This document shows positions 26,454 to 33,893 of a stretch of DNA of 64,000 nt, piece by piece (the stretch's first letter is position 1; each line of letters starts with the position of its first letter). The stretch spans positions 1-64,000 of the forward strand of contig JAGWWS010000004.1 in the NCBI GenBank assembly GCA_018970255.1, in the 5' to 3' direction. The DNA is from Verrucomicrobiota bacterium (GTDB taxonomy: Bacteria; Verrucomicrobiota; Verrucomicrobiia; Chthoniobacterales; Terrimicrobiaceae). The notes beneath the pieces are model-generated. The model worked only from the letters and a program-made list of their open reading frames with translations. It did no database searches and had not been told where the DNA came from. The position numbers were made by a program, and so were the translations under genes.

Positions 26454-28394
26454 ATGAAAAGGTTGCTTGTTACCTTGGTGACCTTGTTGCCAGGGGCCCT
26501 CTTGGCGCAAAATCCTGATTCGATTTCCCTTCCTCCGTCATCGGAAATCCGCAATTCCACCCCGCAGCAACTCTCGGACGTTGTCTCCCAAGCCGTTCTT
26601 GCAAATCCCGGCCAAAGCTCACGGCTTGTGCGTCAGGCCCTGAATCCCTTTCAATCCGAGCAAGGCGGGTTTTCCGAGGAGGACAAAAAACGGGTCGCGG
26701 CAATTGTTTCCTCGGCCGTGGCCGCCTCGCCGCTTTCTTCGAGGGATTCCATCATTGCAGCCGGTGCCGGGGCTCTGCCGACCTTGGGAGCCACCATTGC
26801 CCTCGCGGCCAAGTCGGTCACCTCACACGCCGCGGAGTCTGCTTCCAACTCCGGGATGTTGTTGGGCAACATCCGCGTTCTGGAGGTTTCTGGCAAAGGC
26901 GTCGAGATGATCGATGCCGGCGGCAAGGTTTCCCAGCTGAAGCAGGGCGAGTTTCTTCGTCAAGGCGTCAGGATTGTGACAGGCGCCGAGGGCAGCGCAG
27001 TGTTGATCTTTGAAAACGGGGCTTTCGTCCGCGTGGAACCGGGGTCTGAGTTTTGCATCGAGAAATTCACCCAGGATCCTTTCGACCCGGAGGGTTTGGA
27101 TTACCGCACGAGGGAGAGTGAACCCTCGCGCTCGCTCACGCGGAGCGGTCTTCTGAAGGGCAAAATTCTTTTCGACGTAGCGGAACTCAAAAAAAATTCC
27201 ACATACGAAATCGTCACTCCCGTGGGAGTCGCCGGAATCCGGGGCACGGGGGGCTTCGTCACCAGCACGCCGGGCGCCGGGAACCAACAGGCGGGATTCG
27301 GGCTCTACGAAGGCTCCGCCACCTACACCACGCCCAACGGGCAATCCCAAACAGTCAACCAGAACCAATCTCTTGGAGTCGGCGGGCCCGGTGAAAATTT
27401 TGCGGTGAATACAAACCCGCCCGGTGGTCAAGCCTCGGTGCAACAGGCCCAGCAGGGGATGAGCCAAGCCGGGTCTCTCGTGACCACGCAACCGTTTCTT
27501 GGCGCCCCGCCTCCGCAAAACGCTCCGCCCGATCCCATGTCCAGCCTGACTCCGGCCCAGCAGCAGGCGCTCCAACAAGCAGCCGTCGAGGGTCCGCAGG
27601 CCGTGGCCGAGGCTGCCCAGCAGCTTGCTGCCGCCGCACCTGCTGCCGCGGCGCAAATTGCAATGGCCGCAGCCGATCTTTCACCCGCCGCCGCTACTTC
27701 CATCGCCTCAGGGATTTCCTCGGTCTTGCCTGCTCAAGCGGCCGCGATAGCCGCCGCGGTTTCGGCAGTCGCTCCGGTTCAAGCCGCCGCAGTAGCCTCC
27801 GTTGTGTCGCTTGCCCTGCCAGGCCAAGCTACCTCAGTGGCTTCTGCTGTCGCCACAGTGGTTCCGGCGCAAGCCGCCACAGTGGCCTCGTTTGTCACTA
27901 CAGTGGTCCCTGCCCAAGCCAGTGCCATAGCCGTTTCGATTTCGACATCTGTTCCGTCCGATGCGGGTGCTGTTGCTGCTTCCGTGAGCGCCGTCGTTCC
28001 TACGCAAGCTTCAGCGATCGCCTCATCCGTGGCAACAGCTGTTCCCGCTCAGGCCGCATCGGTGGCCGCGGCAGTTGCCACAGTGGTTCCCGCACAAGCT
28101 GCCACGGTTGCTGCTGCAGTGGCGACCGCTGTGCCAGCGCAAGCTGCTTCCGTGGCCTCTGCAGTGGTGACCGCTGTGCCTGCTGAGGCGGCTTCCGTCT
28201 CTACTGCCGTTTCTGCAGCTGTTCCGTCCCAGGCAGCGGCCATCAATTCTGCAGTCGCTGTTGCGGTCGCCAATGCCAATCAAGCCGGCGATACCGCAAC
28301 TGTGACGACTCCAGCCGGCCCGCCCGTGAACCAGAACCCTGCCGCTCTCACTACTCCGACCCCCACTCCGACTCCAGTATCACCGTCTTTCTAA
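26454..28394 (+). CDS. FecR-domain envelope protein with twelve 15-residue Ala/Val/Pro repeats
   Basis: 646 residues. A signal peptide (1-18, MKRLLVTLVTLLPGALLA) is followed by a helical region, a FecR domain at about 138-290 (GNIRVLEVSGKGVEMIDAGG, VRIVTGAEGSAVLIFENGAFVRV, ATPVGVAGIRGT-like YEIVTPVGVAGIRGTGG), a Gln/Pro linker and a long Ala-rich tail. Residues 419-598 are twelve exact-length copies of a 15-residue unit with consensus SAVATVVPAQAATVA. The end is a short Thr-Pro repeat. It is therefore exported and probably sits in the periplasm or at the surface. FecR domains outside iron signalling often occur in envelope proteins of PVC bacteria. It precedes the EPS export genes and is separated from them by a terminator-like hairpin. 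Confidence 0.75.
   Translation: MKRLLVTLVTLLPGALLAQNPDSISLPPSSEIRNSTPQQLSDVVSQAVLANPGQSSRLVRQALNPFQSEQGGFSEEDKKRVAAIVSSAVAASPLSSRDSIIAAGAGALPTLGATIALAAKSVTSHAAESASNSGMLLGNIRVLEVSGKGVEMIDAGGKVSQLKQGEFLRQGVRIVTGAEGSAVLIFENGAFVRVEPGSEFCIEKFTQDPFDPEGLDYRTRESEPSRSLTRSGLLKGKILFDVAELKKNSTYEIVTPVGVAGIRGTGGFVTSTPGAGNQQAGFGLYEGSATYTTPNGQSQTVNQNQSLGVGGPGENFAVNTNPPGGQASVQQAQQGMSQAGSLVTTQPFLGAPPPQNAPPDPMSSLTPAQQQALQQAAVEGPQAVAEAAQQLAAAAPAAAAQIAMAAADLSPAAATSIASGISSVLPAQAAAIAAAVSAVAPVQAAAVASVVSLALPGQATSVASAVATVVPAQAATVASFVTTVVPAQASAIAVSISTSVPSDAGAVAASVSAVVPTQASAIASSVATAVPAQAASVAAAVATVVPAQAATVAAAVATAVPAQAASVASAVVTAVPAEAASVSTAVSAAVPSQAAAINSAVAVAVANANQAGDTATVTTPAGPPVNQNPAALTTPTPTPTPVSPSF
27708..28247 (+). repeat. 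Twelve tandem 45-bp coding repeats
   Basis: Twelve contiguous 45-base units, with no length variation, encode the 15-residue repeat [SA]-x-V-[AS]-x-x-V-P-x-Q-A-x-x-V-A in the tail of the FecR-type protein. The Pro at unit position 8 and Ala at position 11 are invariant apart from single exceptions elsewhere in the unit. Copies 4, 7, 9 and 10 are closest to each other at DNA level; the outer copies have diverged. This points to growth by unequal crossing over and then drift under protein-level constraint. Confidence 0.85.
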
Positions 28395-28508: not shown

Positions 28509-30923
28509 ATGTCGCGACTCTCTCCAATTTTTGAGAGTGAGGCGCTCGCCCCATTGCAGAAAGCTGGCTTTGAATTCCGCCAGAGTCACTACCGCTTGGG
28601 AATTGATGAGTTCTTGAATTATGTCCGCGAAAATGCACTTCTCGAGAATCTTTGCGGCGAGATTGCCGGTGATGGAAGGGCTCTTGACACCCATACCTTG
28701 CGCGATGCTCTTGGGTCGCTTTTGCTCGCCTTTTTCCAAGGTCAAGCTACTCTGCCCGAACTTGATTCGCAGCGTTTCGAAACCCGTTTTGCCAAGTTGC
28801 TCCGGCTTTCCTGTGTCGAGGGCTCTCATCGAATTGAGCGAATTCTGCAGCGTCTTCGAGATCAAGGAGGTGAAAGTAGTGCTAAAGACCACCTCCAATC
28901 CGCGCTTAGAAACTCTGCCCCGGCACCCTGGGTTTGCGATCTGCAAGTTTCGCGAGTGGAAGCCGAGAATCGAATCGAAGTCCACTCGGTCTGGGATGAC
29001 TCACGGAAAAAGTTTTTTGATATCCAATTTCAGCCCTCATCGGAGCAACGCGGCGCGCGCTCCATGTGCTGGGACTTTTTATCATTATTGCCCTCATGGA
29101 AAAAGCCGGTGTCAGTCCGAGGGTCTGAGAGATTTTGCTCGGAGGAAAATCTCACCGCCGCCGAAGCGCTGGGAGTCGATTTCGTTTTCCAACTCCCGCC
29201 GTCGGCTCATCTCCTGGACCAAAAAGAGCCCCGGTTATCATCAAGTCCAAAACCCGAAGCCCCGCGTTCCGGACTCGTCCAAATGCCCAGCTGGAGTCGG
29301 AAACGGAGAGTTCTTTTTCTCAAATCCGGAGCCGTCGTTGCCTCAAGCGGCCTCTCCATTTCCACTGCCGAAAAACTTTTTCAAAACATGGCGCCTCCGC
29401 CGAGTTGGCGAAAGGGCGGATTGGAAGGCGATTCTTTGGAATGTTCGCAGACGATCGCTCTGTTCGCCGCGATTTTCCAAAACTGGTGGAGTGATTTCGA
29501 AGCCGGACGCACTCCAGATAGCGCGACTTCCACTGACGGAGCCACGATTCCGCGCGGCTCCAGAAAAATTTCCCAGAAACTTGCCGCCGTGATCCTGGTT
29601 CTCCTCGCCACCGGCATCGCCTTCACCGCCAACCCTCAACCCGCCGAGCGTCCTCCTCCACAGGCTCAAAACGCCGCCGAGTCCGATGCCGACTTCCTGC
29701 TCGCGCCCATGCAGCCCGCCAAACCCGATGCGGGGTTCCAAACCATCGAGGCCACCACCGACTATCCCATCGCTCCGTTGCCCGATCCGAATGTGGACGA
29801 TGTCCCGCCGCTCGACGGCGAGCAGATCGGCCTGGTGCAGATTCCTCAAGAAGCCGATGACCGAATGTGGCGCATCCGGCCGGTCATCGCAACCGGCGTG
29901 ACCTATGATGACAATATTTTCATCACGAACACCGATCGCAAGGGCGACCTCATTTACAACATCAACCTCGGGTTCGTTTTGGAAGTCGGCGACTACCGGA
30001 ACATGCAAAGCAACTTCCTTCTCTTAGAGTATCTCGCCGAGGGATTCTTTTTCAATCGCTACGCCTCGCAGAATTCCTTCGACCAGCAAGCCAGCCTGCT
30101 TGCCCAATACCGCTTCAACCAACTCGCCGTCCAAATCGAAAGCCGCTACCAATACTTGAACGGCGCTGAGCGCGAGGTTGGAGCCTTCACCACGCGCTCA
30201 CTATTCTTCAACGCCCTCCGCTTTCTTTACCAATACAGCGAAAAAACCGACATAGACCTCGAGTTCAACCAATCCCTCAACGACTACCCGAGTAACCTCA
30301 GTTCTTCAGACTACCAGGCCAGCCTTGGTTTTGATTATGCACTGTTCCCGAAAACGAAAATTGGGCTGCAGGCAATCGCTGGTCTCCAACCCACGGAGGA
30401 AAGTCCGGACATGTGGTATCAGACCATCAACGCGCGCGTTGCTTATGGTGTCTCTGGCAAGGTGGTGCTCAGAGCCAGTGGCGGCATTCAGTTCAACCAA
30501 TATGCTGGAGGTGGTGAACCCTTACGAATCCTCCCGGTCTTTTCGCTCGGCGCCGAGTATCAACTTTTTCCCAAAACCAGCCTCACATTGGTTGGCTATC
30601 GAAACCTCCAATCCTCGCCCTCCATTGCAAGCCAGGACTACATAGCAACGGGTGGTGAATTCGCACTTTCACAAGTGATCACCGACAAACTCGCGTTTGC
30701 AATCTCCGCCGGCTATGAGAATGATACCTATGTTGCGAACACGACCGATACTAATGCGACTCGCGTGGACAACTTCTACTTCTTCACTCCCAGCTTGACC
30801 TATAGTTTCCTGAAATACCTGCGTGCAACGCTGTCTTACGAATATCGTGCAAATGCCTCCACGCTTTCGGTCGACTCTTGGTATGACAACCAGGTTAGCT
30901 TCGAGTTGGAGGGTGATTTCTAG
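28509..30923 (+). CDS. Dead-transposase-like domain fused to an outer-membrane beta-barrel protein
   Basis: 804 residues in two unlike parts. Residues 1-350 look like an IS1380/IS4-type DDE transposase: a helical N-terminal domain (TLRDALGSLLLAFFQGQATL, SHRIERIL), Asp144 in VCDLQV as the first acidic residue, and VRGSERFCSEENLTAAEALGVDFVFQLP, which matches the second catalytic segment but has Ser206 for Asp. A hydrophobic helix at 358-372 could be a signal or anchor, followed by a Pro-rich linker (380-450). Residues about 462-804 are a beta-barrel with alternating hydrophobic strands (RIRPVIATGVTYDDNIFITN to VSFELEGDF, ending in Phe), like outer-membrane proteins of EPS clusters. The frame is unbroken across both parts. 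Either the gene is a real fusion, or the barrel is translated from an internal start that is not obvious. It precedes the wza-like gene by six bases. Confidence 0.6.
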   Translation: MSRLSPIFESEALAPLQKAGFEFRQSHYRLGIDEFLNYVRENALLENLCGEIAGDGRALDTHTLRDALGSLLLAFFQGQATLPELDSQRFETRFAKLLRLSCVEGSHRIERILQRLRDQGGESSAKDHLQSALRNSAPAPWVCDLQVSRVEAENRIEVHSVWDDSRKKFFDIQFQPSSEQRGARSMCWDFLSLLPSWKKPVSVRGSERFCSEENLTAAEALGVDFVFQLPPSAHLLDQKEPRLSSSPKPEAPRSGLVQMPSWSRKRRVLFLKSGAVVASSGLSISTAEKLFQNMAPPPSWRKGGLEGDSLECSQTIALFAAIFQNWWSDFEAGRTPDSATSTDGATIPRGSRKISQKLAAVILVLLATGIAFTANPQPAERPPPQAQNAAESDADFLLAPMQPAKPDAGFQTIEATTDYPIAPLPDPNVDDVPPLDGEQIGLVQIPQEADDRMWRIRPVIATGVTYDDNIFITNTDRKGDLIYNINLGFVLEVGDYRNMQSNFLLLEYLAEGFFFNRYASQNSFDQQASLLAQYRFNQLAVQIESRYQYLNGAEREVGAFTTRSLFFNALRFLYQYSEKTDIDLEFNQSLNDYPSNLSSSDYQASLGFDYALFPKTKIGLQAIAGLQPTEESPDMWYQTINARVAYGVSGKVVLRASGGIQFNQYAGGGEPLRILPVFSLGAEYQLFPKTSLTLVGYRNLQSSPSIASQDYIATGGEFALSQVITDKLAFAISAGYENDTYVANTTDTNATRVDNFYFFTPSLTYSFLKYLRATLSYEYRANASTLSVDSWYDNQVSFELEGDF

Positions 30924-30929
30924 GCTGAT

Positions 30930-31547
30930 ATGAAACAGATGAGCAGTATTCCATCCGCTTTTGCTTTGCCGTTGTTCATGTTTGCTGTGATTTTCTGCCA
31001 TTTGCCTTCGGCCGACTGTCAGGATGCAGCTTCGCCAAGCGAAACATCCGATTATCGTCTTGCTTCCGACGACCTACTTGATTTCCGGGTTTTTCAAGAA
31101 CCCGAACTGGATTCCGTAGTTCGTGTGTCTGGTGATGGAATTGCTCAGTTTCCGCTCATCGGTTCTGTTTCGATAGGTGGTAAGACAATCTCTGAAGCAA
31201 TTTTGGCGATAGAAAACGCCTATCGCGACGGGTATCTTAAAAATCCACAAGCCAGCCTCACCATCCGAGCATACGCTAAAAAACTCTTCACGATTCTCGG
31301 GCAGGTCCAGCAACCGGGTTCCTACGACATGCAAGGCAATAACCGCATCACACTTCTTCAGGCCATCGGCATGGCCGGGGGTTACACCAAGATCGCCGAT
31401 CCGGCGAATGTGACTGTCAAAAGGCAAGACGAAGGTAGCGAAAAATTATTGAAGTTTAATGCCAAGCGGATGGCCCGTGGAGATGAGGACTCCTCATTTT
31501 TCATCAAAGCTGGCGATGTGATATCTGTTGGCGAATCCCTTTTCTAA
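30930..31547 (+). CDS. Wza-like polysaccharide export protein
   Basis: A 205-residue protein with a signal peptide (about 1-30) followed by the poly_export domain (YRLASDDLLDFRVFQEPELDSVVRVSGDGIAQFPLIG, about 42-80, and SLTIRAYA) and one SLBB domain (FTILGQVQQPGSYDM, about 112-160). It has no lipobox and lacks the second SLBB and C-terminal helix of Escherichia coli Wza, so it is a short form, as in many exosortase-type and PVC EPS clusters. Such proteins form the periplasmic part of the export channel. The adjacent barrel fusion and the tyrosine kinase three bases downstream fit one export complex. Confidence 0.85.
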   Translation: MKQMSSIPSAFALPLFMFAVIFCHLPSADCQDAASPSETSDYRLASDDLLDFRVFQEPELDSVVRVSGDGIAQFPLIGSVSIGGKTISEAILAIENAYRDGYLKNPQASLTIRAYAKKLFTILGQVQQPGSYDMQGNNRITLLQAIGMAGGYTKIADPANVTVKRQDEGSEKLLKFNAKRMARGDEDSSFFIKAGDVISVGESLF

Positions 31548-31550
31548 CCT

Positions 31551-33893
31551 ATGGCCGACTCCCTGCCACAGCGGACTCCTTCTGCCCAGTTGCCCACCCA
31601 TCAACCTCCGCAAAGCCACCATCGCTCCCAGATGCCAGCAGCACTTCAGGGCGCCATGGAGGATCTTGGCTCGCTGGTCGATTTGCGCCACCTGTTTCAC
31701 CTGGTTGTTTTGCGTTGGTGGGTGATCGCTCTGATCGTCAGCATCTGCACGCTTGCGGCCGCTGGGTGGGTGATGCGCCAACCAAAAATCTATCAATCGC
31801 GCGCCGTTCTTCAGGTTCAGCAACAAGAGCAACGCATTTCGAACATCGAAGGGGTCACCCAAGAGAATCCCTCATCCTTGGATTTCATAAACACTGTAGT
31901 CCAAGCCCTCACGAGTCGGAATTTGATGCTTCGAGTCATAGAGTCAGGAAATCTCCGACAAAATCCCGCATTCGTTGCTCCCGGATCAAATCCGACTGAA
32001 ATTCAGCTCGCGGACAGACTTCGTAGCAAAGTTCAAGTCAGCCTACGCCGGGGCACAAGGCTGATAGATATTACCGTGTCAGACCGAAATCCTGTGATGG
32101 CCCGTGATTTGGCTTCCGCTGTCGTCAGAGAGTTCATCAGAGAAAACTTCAGCCAACGGCTCGCCGTTTCCAAGGTGGCTACAGACTTTTTGAGAGAAGA
32201 GGCCGATAAGTTGAAAAAAAAACTCGAGTCCTCCGAACTGAAACTACAGCAATATAAGGAACAGAATCGAGCAGTCTCGCTGGAAGACCGGCAAAACATA
32301 ACGGTCGAGCGGCTTCGGGAGGTTAGCAGTGAGGCTACCGAGGCCAATAATCAGCGACTGAGGTTGGAAGCCGATATCGAGCAGGTTCACAAGCTTGGTG
32401 CGGGCAATACTGAAGAACTGCTTCGAATCCGAAGTGTCGCGGAGATTCCTCAAGTAGCCGCTGCCCGTGCAGAACTCGCTGATGCCACCGCTGAGTTTTC
32501 CGCCCTACAGGATCGATACGGCTACAAGCATCCCAAGCTCATTGCCTCCCAAAAACGGATCGAACTACTTGAAAAAACCCTCGCCGAAAGCACAGCCAAG
32601 GCGGGTGATATTCTTCAAAGGCAGTATGACGCCGCCGTGCTCACGGAGTCCAAGCTCACTGCCGCCCTCAAAGAGCAGGAGGATGCTGCATTGGAATTAA
32701 ACAAAATCGCCATCCCCTATAATGTCCTACAACGCGATGTGGAGAGCGACCGCAGTCTTTACGAAACGCTGCTCCAGCGCATGAAGGAAACATCTGTCAC
32801 TGGGCCCGTTGAGCAAGCCCCATACACACTCATTGAGGAACCCATGGTCCCGGGGCACCCATCCCAACCGAATGTTAGGCGCACGATCATGATGGTGTTT
32901 ATCTTTTCGCTTCTTGTCGCTTTCGCCGGAATCATCATTCTCGACGTGTTCGATTCCTCTCTTCGTTCAGTGGACGAGGCGGAAAAGTTTCTTCATCTGC
33001 CTGCACTCGTTGGAATACCAAACCACCGCGCCATCTCCGCGAGAAGAGGACAACGGCAAAAAAACTTTATCTCGCCGGATACCAACTACCCGATTGGCTA
33101 TGGATCTTCATCATATCGCTCGGCCAGCATTCCAGACGATGAGGGCGATTTTCCTCCAAAAATCCTGGCCAAATCTGATCGGCTAAACTATCCCATCGCT
33201 GCCATTGAAGACCCCGCTTCCTCATTGGCGGAGGCCTACCGGACTCTCCGTGTTTCCCTTTCCATGTTAGGGCCCGAGGAAGAGAGGCGGGTGCTTCTTT
33301 TTGTCAGTGCTGTTCCCGAGGAGGGAAAGACCTACACCTCGCTCAACACAGCTGTTGTGCTCGCCCAGCAAGGTCGGCGAACCCTGCTGATCGACGCCGA
33401 TCTCCGCCGACCGAGCCTCCACAAGGCCCTTCAATCCCGCAGCGAGGTCCCAATTGGGATGACGGATCTTTTCAGCGGCAATGCAAAGTTAAATGAGGTT
33501 ATTCAGCAAACCGACATCGAAAACTTGTTTCTTCTGCCTGCCGGCCGACGCGCGCCGAATCCAGCCGAACTTCTTTCAAGCGCAGATCTTGGGAAGTTGA
33601 TTGAGCAACTTCTGAAAAAATTTGATCGAATTGTAATTGATAGCGCGCCGGTGAATGCGGTTAGCGACACCCTTGTTCTCGCGCCGCACGCACACAAGAC
33701 GATCCTTGTGGTTCGCGCCGGGACAACGCACCGCAAAGCCGTTGAACGCGGCGTTTTGTTATTGCGAAAATCCGGAGCCCGTCTGGCTGGTTTCGTCTTG
33801 AACCGTCTGCCTACAGGTCGCGCGGCAAGTTACTACTACTATTATTACGGCGACAAATACGAGAAAGACTCCGCTTACGGCGCTGCAGGCTGA
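31551..33893 (+). CDS. Wzc-type tyrosine autokinase / chain-length determinant
   Basis: A 780-residue inner-membrane protein. A Wzz domain starts near residue 42, with the first helix WWVIALIVSICTLAAAGWV, a periplasmic coiled-coil (about 205-390) and the second helix IMMVFIFSLLVAFAGIIIL near 445. The cytoplasmic BY-kinase has Walker A SAVPEEGKT with Lys593, Walker A' LLIDADLRRPS and Walker B-like FDRIVIDSAPV. The C-terminus ends in a Tyr cluster, six consecutive Tyr (761-766) plus two more, the autophosphorylation sites that control polymer length. Walker A reads PEEGKT where PGEGKT/S is usual, which is still acceptable. It sits next to the wza-like gene as in classic Wzx/Wzy loci. Confidence 0.92.
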   Translation: MADSLPQRTPSAQLPTHQPPQSHHRSQMPAALQGAMEDLGSLVDLRHLFHLVVLRWWVIALIVSICTLAAAGWVMRQPKIYQSRAVLQVQQQEQRISNIEGVTQENPSSLDFINTVVQALTSRNLMLRVIESGNLRQNPAFVAPGSNPTEIQLADRLRSKVQVSLRRGTRLIDITVSDRNPVMARDLASAVVREFIRENFSQRLAVSKVATDFLREEADKLKKKLESSELKLQQYKEQNRAVSLEDRQNITVERLREVSSEATEANNQRLRLEADIEQVHKLGAGNTEELLRIRSVAEIPQVAAARAELADATAEFSALQDRYGYKHPKLIASQKRIELLEKTLAESTAKAGDILQRQYDAAVLTESKLTAALKEQEDAALELNKIAIPYNVLQRDVESDRSLYETLLQRMKETSVTGPVEQAPYTLIEEPMVPGHPSQPNVRRTIMMVFIFSLLVAFAGIIILDVFDSSLRSVDEAEKFLHLPALVGIPNHRAISARRGQRQKNFISPDTNYPIGYGSSSYRSASIPDDEGDFPPKILAKSDRLNYPIAAIEDPASSLAEAYRTLRVSLSMLGPEEERRVLLFVSAVPEEGKTYTSLNTAVVLAQQGRRTLLIDADLRRPSLHKALQSRSEVPIGMTDLFSGNAKLNEVIQQTDIENLFLLPAGRRAPNPAELLSSADLGKLIEQLLKKFDRIVIDSAPVNAVSDTLVLAPHAHKTILVVRAGTTHRKAVERGVLLLRKSGARLAGFVLNRLPTGRAASYYYYYYGDKYEKDSAYGAAG

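Follow-up and report, generated by a model that had tools for sequence, protein, structure and literature searches.

A single open frame in the 64,000-nucleotide stretch of Verrucomicrobiota DNA analyzed here (the window) joins a domain derived from an IS1380-type transposase to an outer-membrane beta-barrel of an EPS locus, and three further species of the genus carry this fusion. The catalytic triad is gone from all four copies. Since the four species have nevertheless kept the joined gene intact, the transposase part probably has a new job. The explanation that we favor, with moderate confidence, is that a transposase was captured once, lost its triad and was exapted as the cytoplasmic N-terminal domain (N-domain) of an EPS-export porin whose signal peptide is probably cleaved. 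The first-pass annotation of the window had offered a domesticated transposase as one reading, and this is now supported by a single origin, by presence in four species, by the loss of the triad and by constraint on the sequence.

Layout of the fused gene

The fused gene and its neighborhood are listed in Table 1. Inspection of the open reading frames gave 804 codons plus a stop, confirming both the coordinates and the unbroken frame from the transposase half into the barrel that had been claimed earlier. In a profile scan of the window protein, the barrel matched PF10082 (BBP2_2) at 27.7 bits against a cut-off of 23.7, and its similarity to EpsL/TIGR03016 lay below the cut-off. A full-length AF2 model of the fused protein, built from two sequences, reached a pLDDT of only 31, and it is at this level of confidence that it bears on the 18-stranded barrel that characterizes partners of class 3 OPX proteins. 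A scan with defence-system models gave no match, and a sequence search of the PDB found no sequence relatives.

Table 1. Coordinates of the fused gene, its parts and its operon neighbors in the window, and of the unfused barrel genes in the sister genus
Feature	Position	Strand	Basis
FecR-domain protein with Ala/Pro-rich repeat tail, upstream operon neighbor	26454..28394	+	
Fused gene: transposase-derived domain, putative signal peptide, linker and beta-barrel	28509..30923	+	Frame, profile matches, same fusion in G005, G006 and G007
IS1380-type transposase-derived N-domain, residues 1-335, stopping just past the NWW motif	28509..29513	+	
Codon 146 (Gln), place of the first catalytic Asp (D-x-D-[ST]-T)	28944..28946	+	Alignment
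Codon 206 (Ser), place of the second catalytic Asp (RGD motif)	29124..29126	+	Alignment
Codon 298 (Pro), place of the catalytic Glu (Y(2)R(3)E(6)K motif)	29400..29402	+	Alignment
Putative internal signal peptide, residues 350-371: RGSRKISQK, hydrophobic core, G-I-A	29556..29621	+	
Pro-rich linker, presumably periplasmic, residues 372-453	29622..29867	+	
Outer-membrane beta-barrel, residues 454-804 (PF10082 BBP2_2; EpsL/TIGR03016-like)	29868..30920	+	
Class 3 OPX protein, Poly_export and SLBB only, 205 aa	30930..31547	+	Profile scan
Wzc-type polysaccharide co-polymerase / BY-kinase	31551..33893	+	Named from sequence and position
Unfused barrels of the sister genus	L128 7584-9062; L129 9959-11437; L127 7822-9303		

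Origin of the N-terminal domain

The window protein alone matches the NCBIfam model IS1380 (NF033539) over residues 180-270 with an E-value of 1.5e-6, under the curated cut-off. A profile of the four fused N-domains was compared profile to profile, using hhalign, with real IS1380-type transposases of the genus; the match spans 331 columns at probability 100 and an E-value of 6.2e-42. The same profile retrieves real transposase genes in the genomes of the genus at E-values of 1e-46 to 1e-42. These genes match the IS1380 and DDE_Tnp_1_4 models. The IS1380-type layout that had been proposed for the N-terminal half is thus borne out by both the family model and the profile comparison.

In a maximum-likelihood tree, the four fused N-domains form one clade (100/99) that is nested in a fully supported subgroup of ~530-aa IS1380 transposases, although some caution is due with the window and G005 rows, which sit on long branches. 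Common to the four are a truncation after NWW, a deletion in the insertion region and an invariant Cys143, a position occupied by Leu in real transposases; relative to those enzymes, all four lack the last ~100 aa. The clade, these shared characters and the common genomic slot point to a single capture. The window N-domain has lost ~8 further amino acids and is the least similar of the four to real transposases. An AF2 model of the G007 N-domain (pLDDT 66, pTM 0.70) has the Tn5 transposase as its best PDB match (E-value 2.2e-7), the next transposase being piggyBac; this fold is not independent of the homology claim because real transposases were part of the alignment behind the model.

An intact, apparently mobile IS1380-type element of 1.67 kb is present in G010 (L160 2554-4222 and L161 1938-3604). 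Its two copies are 98% identical and bear the terminal repeats CCTAAA..CGGCAGT(T/C)GA, and it is a living relative of the captured transposase. Terminal inverted repeats like those of this element did not rise above shuffled controls at any of the four fused loci, and the N-domain gene is found as a single copy in a fixed operon slot across species. A recent insertion was considered and rejected, as the same genome has no other IS1380 match and the N-domain is single-copy. Transposase genes of the same IS1380 subgroup are also present on three IMG/VR contigs (L167, L168 and L174), so the donor element may be spread by phages or by misbinned contigs.

Distribution of the fusion

A search of 58 relatives found the fusion in G005, G006 and G007, in each case as a single open frame of ~800-850 codons that aligns end to end with the others. 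Its recurrence in three other species excludes a chance join, and the four assemblies, being independent, exclude an assembly chimera; the G007 contig has a sequence match to the public MAG contig VFJO01000027. The EPS locus is patchy within the genus (g1), with the barrel of the fusion present in only 4 of the 16 genomes, and it is fused in all four. In the sister genus of the same family (g3), the barrel is unfused in 3 of 3 genomes. There it is 493-503 aa long and takes the corresponding place in the operon, between a FecR-type gene and the OPX and Wzc-type genes; these barrels are the nearest unfused relatives of the fused barrel.

A search of 213 genomes of the order revealed no comparable open fused frame, sampling at higher ranks (384 genomes from the class, 388 from the phylum) gave no fusion either, and plasmids and viral contigs yielded no relative. 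The capture is datable to one genus. With the unfused barrel, four fusions and living relatives of the donor all at hand, it is possible to study directly in bacteria how a new gene arises when a transposase is captured.

Loss of catalysis and remaining constraint

Real members of the family align at the motifs D-x-D-[ST]-T, R-G-D and Y(2)R(3)E(6)K. In the window, G006, G007 and G005, respectively, the first catalytic Asp is replaced by Gln, Phe, Leu and His, the second by Ser, Gly, Thr and Pro, and the catalytic Glu by Pro, Phe, Phe and Cys; the whole DDE triad is lost in all four fusions. The earlier observation that Ser206 stands in place of the second catalytic Asp is therefore correct, and the alignment adds that Gln146 and Pro298 are likewise substitutions. 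Immediate neighbors of the lost sites are invariant, namely the Asp two residues before the first and the RG before the second. The same is true of the scaffold motifs W-x-R-x-RR, NWW and RG across the fusions, while the catalytic positions vary freely.

Among the four N-domains, third codon positions are saturated at 30-34% identity, with 38-53% at first and 46-61% at second positions, and pN is 0.41-0.56 compared with a saturated pS of 0.75-0.81. Neutrality was assessed by alignment scores instead of simple amino acid identity, because gapped alignments of unrelated sequences inflate identity. Observed Smith-Waterman scores range from 166 to 650, whereas scores under simulated drift, with stop avoidance as the sole constraint and third-position identity matched (0.31-0.36), were at most 63. 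Judged by these comparisons, the transposase part is under purifying selection, with synonymous sites saturated. The selection is moderate, because the N-domains diverge much faster than the barrels: pairwise amino acid identity is 24-41% for the former and 64-81% for the latter (64-67% for barrels paired with that of the window). Constraint of this kind, as estimated from the alignments, shows that the amino acid sequence matters, either for a new function or just for folding.

Putative internal signal peptide and probable export of the barrel

Residues 358-374 form the sole strong hydrophobic segment ahead of the barrel (Kyte-Doolittle 2.5), and a hydrophobic peak preceded by basic residues is found before the barrel in all four fusions. 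The first-pass annotation had recognized this internal helix, which stands, and had also concluded that no usual signal peptide precedes the barrel, which does not. A type 1 signal peptide is indeed absent from the N-terminus of the window fusion and is internal instead (residues 350-371), with the helix aligning to the N-terminal signal peptide of the 493-503 aa unfused relatives. Ala371 (position -1) is invariant in all seven sequences, four fused and three unfused, Gly369 (position -3) is shared by all four fusions, and most of the sequences have a T-x-N-P stretch after the helix. The helix looks like the former signal peptide of the barrel, now internal, and the conserved site suggests that signal peptidase I probably cuts after Ala371. 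Because of the alignment with ordinary signal peptides, the barrel is probably cut free, and the membrane-anchored protein envisaged earlier is disfavored.

Start codons bear on how the barrel is made. There is no ATG, GTG or TTG between codons 310 and 361 of the window gene, between 312 and 358 in G005, or from after codon 321 to the helix in G007; in these three of the four species the gap upstream of the hydrophobic core is at least 40 codons. An internally started barrel is for this reason unlikely, and the barrel is most likely produced by read-through of the N-domain. G006 has ATG codons just ahead of the helix, which makes internal initiation possible in that species. How Sec would handle a signal peptide that lies behind a folded domain of ~335 residues is a question for protein export that the fusion raises. 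The unfused barrels of g3 have ~35 residues ahead of the hydrophobic core, an unusually long n-region, and the extended n-region is thus older than the capture.

Operon context and the likely OPX partner

The fused gene sits before the OPX and Wzc-type genes in the same slot in four species, and the Wzc-type protein of the window is 65-67% identical to those beside the other fusions. A FecR gene immediately precedes the fusion in three of the four, the window, G005 and G006; G007 lacks one at this place. The barrel-OPX gene order of the window recurs in G005 and in the unfused loci of G017, G020 and G023. An architecture of Poly_export and SLBB only is the definition of class 3 OPX proteins (PMC9603273), which are without an outer-membrane pore of their own and are paired with a neighboring beta-barrel (PMC9601211, PMC9603273). 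From its family and the gene order, the fused barrel is likely the translocon partner of the OPX protein encoded at 30930-31547. The long C-terminal tail of the upstream FecR-domain protein consists of 15-residue repeats (approximately V-P-A-Q-A-A-x-V-A-x-A-V-x-x-x) with a 45-bp period, and similar tails occur beside the G006 and G005 fusions.

Proposed history and alternative explanations

We propose that an IS1380-type transposase gene became joined in frame before an EPS-export porin gene, once, in an ancestor within the genus, and that the transposase part, having lost its triad, became a permanent N-terminal domain. The whole frame would be translated from the upstream start and the N-domain would fold in the cytoplasm. 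Sec would engage the barrel's original signal peptide, which is now internal, while the N-domain stays on the cytoplasmic side, and signal peptidase I would then cut after Ala371. The barrel could thereby reach the outer membrane as pore partner of the adjacent class-3 OPX protein, and the N-domain would remain cytoplasmic, tethered to the inner membrane by the leftover hydrophobic helix, in some non-catalytic job as a scaffold or nucleic-acid-binding regulator. General DNA binding is not a conserved property, since the predicted net charge of the N-domain at pH 7 is -3 in the window, -4 in G006, +7 in G007 and +21.5 in G005. The data are matched at least as well by a domain that acts at the inner membrane as a scaffold or through protein contacts and is produced in a constant ratio to the pore. 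As a tentative refinement, which we think unlikely in this specific form, the cut-off N-domain may be a membrane-tethered regulator, produced together with the pore at a fixed ratio, that binds either to DNA or to the EPS machinery from its cytoplasmic side and matches the output of EPS to that of the pore; signal-peptide cleavage would serve as the step of release or reporting.

The strongest rival to exaptation, and a real if minority possibility, is that the N-domain has no job at all. Selection would just keep the frame open and the segment soluble, and the leader would have to be translated through to make the barrel because no start codon is near the signal peptide. The missing start codons in three species, the fast evolution of the N-domain and its unconserved charge all agree with this, and part of the constraint could serve folding and solubility. 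Yet the amino acid similarity far exceeds what stop avoidance would leave, the scaffold motifs (RG, W-x-R-x-RR and NWW) have stayed invariant as the catalytic positions drifted, and ~335 codons have been retained in four species even though a new start codon should arise easily and free the barrel of its leader.

Two further explanations differ in the fate of the barrel. If the helix were a signal anchor, the protein would stay uncut and span both membranes, its ~80-residue linker crossing the periplasm and its N-domain, tied to the barrel, reporting the state of the pore. The positive-inside rule does place the helix N-in, with RGSRKISQK on the cytoplasmic side, and such a linker is long enough in principle. 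We nevertheless consider this quite improbable, because the residues at -3 (Gly) and -1 (Ala) do not vary and the helix lines up with N-terminal signal peptides of the ordinary kind; in the alignment, moreover, the linker is no longer than that of unfused relatives and so did not evolve to span the periplasm. A decaying remnant in front of a barrel translated from an internal start, the other reading entertained in the first-pass annotation, would account for the loss of catalytic residues in all four fusions and for the ATG codons beside the signal peptide in G006. It is very improbable given a frame that is open in four of four species despite saturated third positions, conservation well above neutral drift, and the lack of a start codon near the helix in the other three species.

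Comparison with known systems

The capture of transposases is an established phenomenon, described mostly in eukaryotes. In eukaryotic host-transposase fusion genes, a transposase domain has been captured in frame by a host gene, and the partner is a transcription-factor domain. The fusion described here resembles them in an in-frame capture conserved as one gene, with a domain that is catalytically dead, and differs in being bacterial, in having an exported outer-membrane pore as the partner, and in that its parts are probably separated by signal peptidase. In the papers that we searched, neither a fusion of a bacterial DDE transposase with a host envelope protein nor a transposase domain ahead of an outer-membrane protein was described, and a word search of a review on mobile-element recruitment in prokaryotes gave no mention of DDE transposases.

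Relative to the IS1380 transposases themselves (NF033539, DDE_Tnp_1_4), the N-domain is homologous over the 331 columns and belongs to a subgroup with mobile members in the genus. It differs from them in lacking the triad, a portion of the insertion region and the last ~100 aa, in having no terminal inverted repeats that we could find, in its single copy in a fixed slot, and in being joined to an exported protein. ToxR/CadC-type regulators have a cytoplasmic N-domain, one N-in membrane helix and a periplasmic part, a layout that is also predicted for the fusion; the fusion departs from them in its fold, in having an outer-membrane barrel as the periplasmic part and in a helix that looks cleavable.

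As a functional analogy only, TldR proteins are nuclease-dead relatives of TnpB in bacteria that are non-catalytic and control flagellin (PMC13418256), and in both cases a transposon-encoded nuclease would have been exapted as a non-catalytic factor for a surface structure. The protein families are unrelated, and TldR is RNA-guided. Closest in genetic setting are EpsY-EpsX and WzaX-WzpX of Myxococcus, where an OPX protein with only Poly_export and SLBB and an outer-membrane beta-barrel are likewise encoded by adjacent genes of an EPS operon (PMC9601211, PMC9603273). In Myxococcus, the signal peptide of the class 3 partner barrels is an ordinary one of type 1 (PMC9601211), whereas that of the fused barrel is preceded by a predicted cytoplasmic domain of ~335 residues.
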